DNA from: Oligoflexales bacterium | GTDB lineage: Bacteria; Bdellovibrionota_B; Oligoflexia; Oligoflexales; CACXFL01 | Length of the DNA stretch: 12,783 nt | Direction: 5' to 3' | Assembly: GCA_028282865.1 (NCBI GenBank) | Contig: JANQHA010000038.1 | Location: 1-12,783 of the forward strand | Part shown: positions 6,235-7,990 of the stretch, in pieces | Position numbering within the stretch: position 1 is the first letter of the stretch | How the letters are laid out: each line of letters starts with the position of its first letter | Notes under the pieces: generated by a model | Seen by the model: the letters and a program-made list of their open reading frames with translations, nothing else | What the model was told of the DNA's origin: nothing | Database searches by the model: none | Program-made: the position numbers and the translations under genes

Positions 6235-6267
6235 ATTAACTCCTTCATGCTTAAGTCTTCAGATAGC

Positions 6268-6313
6268 AAAAAAGGAGATCAGGGTGCGAGATGATCGCAC
6301 GGGTGAACTCCTT
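6268..6313 (-). terminator. Intrinsic terminator between cobalamin riboswitch and nrdA
   Basis: Minus-strand RNA forms a two-part stem: AAGGAG (6308-6313) with CTCCTT (6272-6277), a short TCA/TGA helix, and an apical GTGCGA (6295-6300) with TCGCAC (6284-6289) around a 5-base loop. A run of T follows at once (6268-6273 as A on the plus strand). It lies 34 bases before the nrdA ATG and about 50 bases after the aptamer, where a transcription-terminating riboswitch expression platform is expected. A separate AAGGAG at 6240-6245 serves as the ribosome site, so this is not the Shine-Dalgarno itself. Confidence 0.85.
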
Positions 6314-6364
6314 CGCCTCTCCCTCGAAGACAAAGTTATTAAACTAGCCAATTTTGGCCTAGTG

Positions 6365-6529
6365 CGTCGGTAGGTCTTCGGACTTGCGAGCTTTAAGCCT
6401 ACTCCAAACCGCTTCCCAGCAAATCTCTGCCAGTGCTTAATGGCTTGTTTCGTTCTCGTTTACCGCTGCGGGGCAGTCCCGGATTCCCACCGGATTCCCT
6501 GTTGATGCATCTGCGATGCGGAACCGACG
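6365..6529 (-). promoter_or_regulatory. Cobalamin (AdoCbl-type) riboswitch aptamer in the nrdAB leader
   Basis: The minus strand shows the conserved core (6460-6499) with GGGAATCCGGTGGGAATCC, then GGGACTGCCCCGCAGCGGTAA, followed by CACTGG and a B12 box reading AGTCCGAAGACCTACCG (6368-6384). Closing helix P1 is a perfect 7-pair stem, CGTCGGT (6523-6529) with ACCGACG (6365-6371). These are the hallmarks of the cobalamin riboswitch, which usually turns genes off when adenosylcobalamin is bound. The strand and position put it in the 5' leader of nrdAB, not of a B12 transport or synthesis gene. The exact ligand form (AdoCbl or another cobalamin) is inferred from the large canonical core. Confidence 0.95.
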
Positions 6530-6537
6530 GCTTATAT

Positions 6538-6553
6538 ACACAAGATATAGCGG
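6538..6553 (-). promoter_or_regulatory. NrdR box 2, over the -10 element
   Basis: Minus strand CCGCTATATCTTGTGT matches the NrdR consensus ACACWATATATWGTGT at 13 of 16 positions. It covers the -10 hexamer. It is 16 bases from box 1, so the centres are 32 bases (about three helical turns) apart, the arrangement known for cooperative NrdR binding. NrdR is a zinc-ribbon/ATP-cone repressor that senses ATP/dATP. Confidence 0.72.
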
Positions 6554-6570
6554 CTTAACCTTTGAGTCAA
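6542..6570 (-). promoter_or_regulatory. Sigma70-type promoter of nrdAB
   Basis: On the minus strand TTGACT (6565-6570) is separated by exactly 17 bases from TATCTT (6542-6547). The start of transcription would be near 6534-6536, just before the P1 helix of the riboswitch, so the aptamer begins the transcript. Both elements are overlapped by the NrdR-like boxes. Confidence 0.75.
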
Positions 6571-6585
6571 CACCATAAGTGGTGT
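6570..6585 (-). promoter_or_regulatory. NrdR box 1, touching the -35 element
   Basis: Minus strand ACACCACTTATGGTGT is a near-perfect palindrome with ACAC and GTGT ends, matching the NrdR consensus at 12 of 16 positions. Its last base is the first base of the -35 hexamer. Together with box 2 it would block RNA polymerase. Confidence 0.75.
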
Positions 6586-6637: not shown

Positions 6638-7990
6638 TTATAGACCAAAAAACTTTTTCACCAATTGATCCAAATCCCAAGCGATCTTGTAAGTCGATCG
6701 GAACTCTTCACCACCGTAAGTGAGTGGTGAAACTAAGTAGAAACCCAGGCTAATGGTCGCCGCAATTAAACAAAAAACAATAATACTAGACTTGGTTGTC
6801 AGTGACTTTAAGTGACTTTGCCCAAGGTAGGTAAATACGATGAGGATTAAAAAAATAAGTGGAGTTAAATAATTCCATATCAGCATTGTTCTAGTGACTG
6901 AAACGTACGGTAAATAGGATCCTAAAAAGCCAATAACAAGTATGAAGTAAGGGCTTTTTTTTACTTCTGAAAATTTCGGCAAATTCTGCCATTTTGTTTG
7001 GAAAAGTAGAAACAAACCCATCAAAAGGCTACCGAGCCACACTGTGGGATTTCCCTTAAAGACCATGCCACCGTAGTGCACTGATTTATACATCAACGGC
7101 CAGGTCCACCAAGGGCTAGTGCCTGGGTGGGTTCCCTGAAACTTGACCTGGCTACTTAAAATGAGGAGGTTTTGCTTCCAGAAATCGACCAATAAATTCC
7201 CCGTTGGTTTTACAAATTTCTCCAGGTTCTCATTAGTCGGCAATACCAGCAATTTAAAATGTATCAACCAGCCACCAACAAATATGAATGCAAAACCTAA
7301 AAGGACATATAAGCTCGAACTAGCTATCTCTCGGCGAGTAGATTCGGTCCGGTTTAGCATGATCGTAAGCGCTACCATGCCTAGCCCGATTAGGCCGGAG
7401 AGTTTAGCGCCTAGCGCAAGGCCACAAAAACCTCCAGCAACGGCACAAAGGAGATACTTAAGCCACTTTGCTTGCTGCTTTTCAGCCAGCAAGTAGAATA
7501 AAAGTCCACCAAAAATTCCTGAGATTAAGGCGTAATCAAGGTTGAGTACTCGCGACTGCAGGACTAGTGCATTGTCAAGTGCGATGGCTAAGCCACCTAG
7601 GAAGGCTGCCGGTATACCGGCACCTAATTGGATAAGCAAAAAGAAAATGATGACCACCGCGGCTATACCCCCTAGTGCTGGCACTAGTCTAATTTTTTCG
7701 ATTGAAATACCGGGTGCAAACGGCTGACCGCCGCCGCCAAACTCATAATCACAGTCGTATGAACTGAGCCTCATTGCGGCAGCAATTAGTAGCTTCGCGT
7801 GAGGCGGATGCATATCGAAAATTCTGACTCCTGTGCAGTTGTAAGCGGCGGCAAAGTTTCCGTAATAAACCTCGTCAAAAACGACTCGATTTGGTGTTCC
7901 TACATCCCATACGCGTGTTAAGAACCCTATGACTAGCAGTGTAGCCACCGCAAAAAAATATTTGATGGATTTTGGCAAGCTAAAACTCAC
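6638..7990 (-). CDS. PMT-family (GT39) protein O-mannosyltransferase-like membrane glycosyltransferase
   Basis: 450 residues with many hydrophobic membrane segments. PMT-family motifs appear in order: FDEVYYGNF with the acidic D39-E40 pair that is catalytic in characterised PMTs, MHPPHAKLL (60-68), ALDNALVLQSR (137-147), GLALGAKLSGL (190-200) and HPGTSPWWTWPL (288-299). There are no MIR domains, as is normal for bacterial members. By family it transfers mannose (or another sugar) from a polyprenyl-phosphate donor to Ser/Thr of exported proteins on the outer face of the inner membrane. Start is GTG at 7990: TAA lies only three codons upstream in frame and no in-frame ATG is near. The ribosome site is weak (AAGAAAAA). 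The sugar donor is not known from sequence; other lipid-linked sugars are possible. Confidence 0.85.
   Translation of the reverse strand: MSFSLPKSIKYFFAVATLLVIGFLTRVWDVGTPNRVVFDEVYYGNFAAAYNCTGVRIFDMHPPHAKLLIAAAMRLSSYDCDYEFGGGGQPFAPGISIEKIRLVPALGGIAAVVIIFFLLIQLGAGIPAAFLGGLAIALDNALVLQSRVLNLDYALISGIFGGLLFYLLAEKQQAKWLKYLLCAVAGGFCGLALGAKLSGLIGLGMVALTIMLNRTESTRREIASSSLYVLLGFAFIFVGGWLIHFKLLVLPTNENLEKFVKPTGNLLVDFWKQNLLILSSQVKFQGTHPGTSPWWTWPLMYKSVHYGGMVFKGNPTVWLGSLLMGLFLLFQTKWQNLPKFSEVKKSPYFILVIGFLGSYLPYVSVTRTMLIWNYLTPLIFLILIVFTYLGQSHLKSLTTKSSIIVFCLIAATISLGFYLVSPLTYGGEEFRSTYKIAWDLDQLVKKFFGL

Follow-up and report, generated by a model that had tools for sequence, protein, structure and literature searches.

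Why should a cobalamin (vitamin B12) riboswitch stand before the genes of a B12-independent class I ribonucleotide reductase? The question is raised by a stretch of 12,783 nucleotides from an Oligoflexales bacterium (contig JANQHA010000038.1 of assembly GCA_028282865.1; the whole stretch is hereafter called the window), in which nrdA and then nrdB are the next genes after the aptamer on the same strand, just as a preliminary description of the sequence had claimed. The answer that we regard as quite likely is that the nrdAB leader contains a transcription-terminating AdoCbl OFF riboswitch, with NrdR as a second layer of control. The features on which this reading is built are collected in Table 1.

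Table 1. Features of the nrdAB locus in the window, in the order of transcription.
Feature	Positions	Strand	Basis
NrdR-type box 1, ACACCACTTATGGTGT	6570..6585	-	last base touches -35 hexamer
Candidate sigma-70 promoter, TTGACT-17-TATCTT	6542..6570	-	consensus scan, 9/12 matches; 1 found, 0.3 expected
NrdR-type box 2, CCGCTATATCTTGTGT	6538..6553	-	13/16 against the consensus used; weaker; 32 bases from box 1; covers -10 hexamer
Cobalamin (B12) riboswitch aptamer	6352..6543	-	RF00174, 100 bits, E 1.6e-24, full length
Terminator-like hairpin	6268..6311	-	GGAG..CUCC, inner GUGCGA/UCGCAC stem, then six U (6273-6268)
Shine-Dalgarno-like AAGGAG of nrdA	6240..6245	-	read from sequence
nrdA, class I reductase large subunit, 791 aa	3859..6234	-	TIGR02506 727 bits (cut-off 341); PF02867, PF00317
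nrdB, class I reductase small subunit, 332 aa	2847..3845	-	PF00268 276 bits (cut-off 34)

The riboswitch had been placed at positions 6365-6529 from the sequence alone, and this interval lies inside a match to the Rfam Cobalamin covariance model, the scan that the preliminary description had proposed as a check. The match covers model positions 1-189 of 189 and far exceeds the gathering score of 31.5 bits (cmscan), while no other Rfam family reached its own gathering score anywhere in the window. The P1 stem of seven pairs described earlier is also borne out: once the Rfam structure is mapped onto the sequence, seven consecutive standard pairs are found. By eye, no clear P13 or L13 is present in the leader, and no L5-L13 kissing loop was identified. 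The gene that precedes the element encodes a PMT-family mannosyltransferase and ends at position 6638.

Between the aptamer and nrdA sits the terminator-like hairpin, which has an internal loop and a folding energy of -15.3 kcal/mol. It was also picked up by a separate terminator scan of the leader; it is absent from the output of a simple pattern scan, which permits no internal loop and whose one terminator-like site lies on the + strand, over the palindrome of box 1. In folding calculations, the lower stem of the hairpin has a probability of 0.98-1.00 with the aptamer either free or enforced and, in consequence, folding shows no switch. From the end of the U run there are 22 bases to the Shine-Dalgarno-like sequence, followed by the nrdA start.

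Both subunits of the class I enzyme, NrdA and NrdB, are present with open reading frames. The NrdB stretch EALHAQFY matches the pattern E-x-x-H-x-x-x-Y, which we take, from E. coli NrdB, to correspond to metal ligands and the radical tyrosine; no nrdS was found beside nrdB in the window. An N-terminal ATP-cone is not universal among class I ribonucleotide reductases, and the window NrdA gives no match to this domain (PF03477), which is absent in four of the 119 other homologues listed (precomputed domains). In an N-terminal alignment, residues 1-60 (6234-6055, - strand) appear as a degenerate ATP-cone that has lost the K-R-x-G motif. According to a crude motif search, a KRxG-type motif is kept in 78 of the 86 NrdA sequences of the tree set described below; the eight without it are those of the window, of L105 and L139, and five from the class of the window genome. 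Overall dATP control of the window NrdA may, to judge from these residues, have been lost.

The promoter region brings in a second regulator. A search for ACACNANNTATNGTGT across the window hit box 1 and nothing else (no mismatches, up to one allowed; 0.04 expected by chance), and the pair formed by the two boxes was reached by none of 300 dinucleotide shuffles. Both ACACNANNTATNGTGT and ACACWATATATWGTGT are forms of what we take to be the NrdR box consensus. The same genome encodes NrdR on contig C339 (TIGR00244, 168.5 bits, cut-off 124.65), so that the regulator gene is accompanied by paired boxes at the nrdAB promoter, as defined by this consensus.

This box pair recurs at the nrdA loci of other bacteria that carry the riboswitch. 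Using the consensus ACACWATATATWGTGT, a spacing of 31 or 32, 300 dinucleotide shuffles per locus and p<=0.01, a predicted NrdR box pair was found in 29 of 33 riboswitch-nrdA loci, a set that includes the window and in which many members are close kin. The first box starts 33-43 bases ahead of the aptamer in 27 of the 33; in L100 and L112 the significant pair is at another position, and in L038, L092, L095 and L101 the pair was not significant at that threshold (300 shuffles each). As a control, B12 riboswitches not preceding nrd genes gave no box pair at p<=0.01 (0/7), the nearest being L008, with a pair at a similar position and p 0.083. Among nrdA loci that lack the riboswitch, such a pair was found in 23 of 42 (450 bases scanned, 200 shuffles each) and, hence, the operator is independent of the riboswitch. 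The predicted near-fixed layout of operator and riboswitch is, together with the distribution of the riboswitch relative to NrdJ, what this analysis adds.

Should B12 govern a B12-independent reductase, a B12-dependent class II enzyme, NrdJ, would be expected elsewhere in the genome, as had been predicted. The assembly (3.33 Mb, 683 contigs, 90% complete) does encode NrdJ, on contig C199 (NF005736, 1787 bits, cut-off 1737; PF08471; TSCPD), its 5' end being cut by the contig end; its identity to the NrdJ of 14 relatives of the order is 60-68%, a range that does not decide NrdJ descent. The companion prediction, that genes for B12 uptake or synthesis would be present, stood only in part. On the one hand, the genome encodes (i) a PduO-type cobalamin adenosyltransferase (contig C202, 201 bits); and (ii) four B12-binding-domain matches, two of them over cut-off, namely MetH (TIGR02082, 1208 bits over 1011) and an IcmF-like mutase-GTPase frame (NF045497, 819 bits, under the cut-off of 1500), of whose 1103 residues the locus covered a part. 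On the other hand, neither CbiC nor CobS, two markers of synthesis and assembly, nor the FecCD importer family was matched in this 90% complete assembly, and no B12 importer was found in it. Judged by the markers searched, and with about one-tenth of the genome possibly missing, the organism seems to use B12 while lacking both ring synthesis and the final assembly steps. Given the adenosyltransferase, MetH and the IcmF-like frame, the cell probably converts cobalamin to AdoCbl and makes use of it.

At L002:1501-2682 (contig C243 of this genome), a second Cobalamin match (44 bits) stops 13 bases short of an open reading frame with a secreted-looking N-terminus, the remainder of which is a DUF1559/N_methyl protein. 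Such proteins are presumably typical of Planctomycetes, and the contig may be chimeric.

How widespread the arrangement is was assessed in the best 80 of 591 confirmed nrdA relatives, all from named genomes. A Cobalamin riboswitch (Rfam) lies upstream of nrdA on the same strand at 32 of these 80 loci, so the earlier statement that this logic occurs in a few bacteria was too narrow: within this set, many of the nearest relatives by NrdA share the arrangement. By title or NCBI lineage, 30 of the 32 belong to Xanthomonadales, Myxococcota and Acidobacteriota; the others are two MAGs titled only Proteobacteria bacterium (L096 and L098), which group with a Rhodanobacter MAG. Six loci with fewer than 400 bases before the match (L036, L037, L043, L082, L085 and L089) were excluded from the comparison with NrdJ, the box scans and the tree, leaving 74. 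NrdJ over cut-off (TIGR02504) was found in 31 of the 32 riboswitch genomes, Dyella and Luteibacter among them, the sole exception being a Bryobacteraceae MAG (L092). Where the riboswitch is absent, NrdJ was found in 23 of the 42; the Fisher p of 3.7e-5 ignores kinship and comes from a test outside which the window itself was kept. A kinship-aware pair test had three usable pairs on starred branches and five on all branches, too few for any statistical power, with 1.1 going the same way, 1.0 the other way and 0.9 showing no difference.

One Stenotrophomonas group in the tree comprises six loci. Five of them (L049, L053, L054, L057 and L064) have neither the riboswitch nor an over-cut-off NrdJ, their genomes holding an RNR-like frame of 824-923 residues that matches in two pieces well under cut-off; the sixth, L058, has NrdJ and no riboswitch. 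All six retain the box pair, a pattern that might reflect an operator kept, and a riboswitch gone, after NrdJ loss. Their box pair closely resembles that of the riboswitch-bearing Pseudoxanthomonas L097. Two further observations were made in this set: (i) Oleiagrimonas carries a second, divergent Cobalamin riboswitch beside the nrdA one (L087:813-1109, - strand; 77 bits); and (ii) in seven genomes (G077, G081, G082, G091, G103, G109 and G112) the NrdJ match is interrupted for about 1.1 kb, in frame and at one profile place, within open frames of 1105-1332 aa.

Closer to the window genome, 56 genomes were compared, namely the window genome (G000) and 55 others that share its order or class. With E<=0.001 as threshold, Cobalamin matches turned up in 18 of the 56; in 10, a match exceeds the cut-off (stricter filters). 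The loci around 28 matches of the other genomes were examined (three further matches were left out), and tblastn with the window NrdA and NrdB and the NrdJ of G000 found nothing near them at E 1e-8. Seven strong matches stand before genes for TonB-receptor-like proteins (L006, L007, L009 and L010; the Plug domain was tested for L006, the others were assigned by eye) or CbiX-ferredoxin proteins (L008 and L012 by Pfam; L011 by NCBIfam matches under cut-off). A divergent class II-like RNR, missed by tblastn at that threshold, lies near three weak matches of 28-33 bits (L023, L026 and L029, in G049, G045 and G043), which share the same syntenic place upstream of a thioesterase-like gene followed by the class II-like RNR; this is possibly a degenerate B12 element on an NrdJ operon. 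Another weak match (L028 in G044, 29.5 bits, under cut-off) lies, as judged by eye, between divergent citrate-synthase-like and MmgE/PrpD-like genes, and would fit B12 control of a B12-independent propionate route.

NrdJ is over cut-off in 15 of the 56 genomes, and a class I type match accompanies it in three of these: G000, G008 and G041. The class I type large-subunit gene of G041 (contig C104, L151) is disrupted by a stop codon as well as a change of frame, an apparent case of class I decay. For G008, a member of the same order, a search relaxed to E 1 still gave no Cobalamin match in the vicinity of the class I gene. Four genomes of the same class (G043, G044, G045 and G049) combine a class I match with a class II-like RNR of 385-394 bits versus the NrdJ cut-off of 400 and, by coordinates, no Cobalamin match lies near their class I genes. 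Since genomes with both classes and no riboswitch near class I exist, here as well as among the 23 named genomes mentioned above (of 42 riboswitch-less loci in the best 80 of 591), possession of both classes does not require the riboswitch.

Taken as a working mechanism, these elements would act as follows. When AdoCbl is plentiful, the aptamer would fold and the terminator would form; the oxygen-dependent class I reductase would then not be made, and NrdJ would supply deoxynucleotides. When B12 is short, transcription would read through into nrdAB. NrdR would constitute the second layer, binding the pair of boxes over the promoter, immediately upstream. We infer ligand binding, the sign of regulation, termination and NrdR binding alike; that B12 turns nrdAB off is, in particular, drawn from analogy. 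The explanation is supported, at the level of sequence comparison, by the geometry of the boxes and by the rarity of the riboswitch where NrdJ was not found.

Other readings of the same leader must be weighed. The switch might act in the opposite sense, B12 raising nrdAB expression, if ligand binding freed a downstream GUCUUCG to serve as antiterminator and prevent termination. There is a structural basis for such a scheme: CGAAGAC, in the B12-box region of the aptamer, is the perfect complement of GUCUUCG (duplex -9.1 kcal/mol); in the unconstrained fold the two pair in part (0.29-0.48); and GUCUUCG can also pair with the 5' side of the terminator, in a hairpin of -4.5 kcal/mol, a structure of this antiterminator type being predicted before the 3' arm of the terminator is made. 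However, complementarity over 7 bases should arise by chance about once between stretches of about 192 and 80 bases (an estimate), the terminator wins in both folds carried to the end of the U run, and the sign would be biologically backwards, the cited precedents being repressive; an ON switch is, in our opinion, hardly credible. An OFF switch that acts on translation instead of termination is unlikely rather than implausible. It would agree with a scan that gave no strong terminator behind the aptamer in 22 of 33 loci, although in several of these the scan could cover only 10-64 bases, given how close even the farthest candidate start codon lies. In the window, by contrast, a strong hairpin directly abuts six U, and this run stops 22 bases short of the Shine-Dalgarno-like sequence.

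It might also be argued that the riboswitch is a relic, imported with nrdAB and no longer regulating. The long branch of the window NrdA (0.86) and its degenerate ATP-cone would fit relaxed constraint; nevertheless, the aptamer still matches the full model at 100 bits, the hairpin, the box pair and the Shine-Dalgarno sequence are all in place, and nrdA and nrdB are open. A relic is very unlikely on these grounds, and a terminating OFF switch under AdoCbl continues to be the reading that we prefer.

Where the nrdAB genes came from is a separate matter. A quick tree was made of 86 NrdA sequences with frames taken from tblastn; an earlier tree, based on the longest open frame per locus, was discarded owing to 13 odd rows judged to be antisense frames of GC-rich loci, which were gone with the tblastn frames. 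In this tree, the NrdAs of the order and those of Bdellovibrionota form one supported group (99), apart from the window NrdA. The latter falls within a group of 40 rows, 32 of them riboswitch-bearing (support 88, not starred), which consists mostly of riboswitch-bearing NrdAs of Myxococcota and Xanthomonadales; the nearest rows by path are L040 (1.18) and L042 (1.23), both without the riboswitch, and L038 (1.19), with it. The riboswitch trait needs five changes on the tree. Horizontal transfer of the window nrdAB is thereby suggested and, in our judgement, likely, although forcing the window NrdA into its own order (25.5 log units, AU p 0.122) or into the order plus Bdellovibrionota (23.6 log units, AU p 0.113) was not rejected.

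A broader proposal, which we put forward tentatively and hold to be possible rather than probable, is that NrdR operator, B12 riboswitch and nrdAB constitute one portable cassette of fixed geometry that moves between phyla, and that subsequent NrdJ loss removes the riboswitch and leaves the operator. In such a cassette, the box pair would lie 31-32 bases apart over the promoter and the transcript would enter the aptamer at once. If so, an NrdJ-based lineage acquiring it would gain a class I enzyme kept off for as long as B12 enables NrdJ to function. The fixed layout, together with lineages that have the operator and no riboswitch, offers a testable account of how a regulatory RNA can move along with the gene that it controls and then disappear.

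The regulatory logic is already known from a few bacteria. The observation holds here and its interpretation is supported, probably adding a further lineage to those in which B12 decides which of two forms of an essential enzyme is used. Earlier literature reportedly includes Vitreschak and Rodionov in 2003. No paper was found under the words "NrdR box" and "riboswitch" together, and the available passages on the cobalamin riboswitch, Xanthomonas and nrdA do not describe the arrangement. In other wording, the two elements are paired in a paper on Propionibacterium acnes and, hence, the combination is not new in itself (PMC3848588, available passages). In Pseudomonas aeruginosa, nrd expression drops slightly with B12 and does so without the involvement of a B12 riboswitch, according to the passages available (PMC5962746).

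As far as the passages at hand go, three known systems can be compared with the window: (i) nrdABS of Streptomyces coelicolor (Borovok 2006, as cited in PMC4991794), in which an AdoCbl riboswitch likewise stands ahead of the class Ia operon and NrdJ is encoded as well, but which differs in its lineage and in having nrdS; (ii) nrdAB of P. acnes, with an annotated cobalamin riboswitch and an nrd-box at the promoter, nrdRJ in the genome and much transcription apparently ending before the first gene, where a single nrd-box is found in place of the pair 32 apart (PMC3848588); and (iii) the B12-elements of nrdDG in Desulfovibrio vulgaris and Desulfuromonas, for which the same cofactor logic was proposed with NrdJ as the alternative, the target being the class III NrdDG instead of class I (PMC545781). 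Also to be compared are the 32 riboswitch nrdA loci among the best 80 of 591 relatives: while their leaders are mostly GC-rich and 22 have no strong terminator by scan, they share with the window a coding-strand riboswitch before nrdA and, in most, the box pair.
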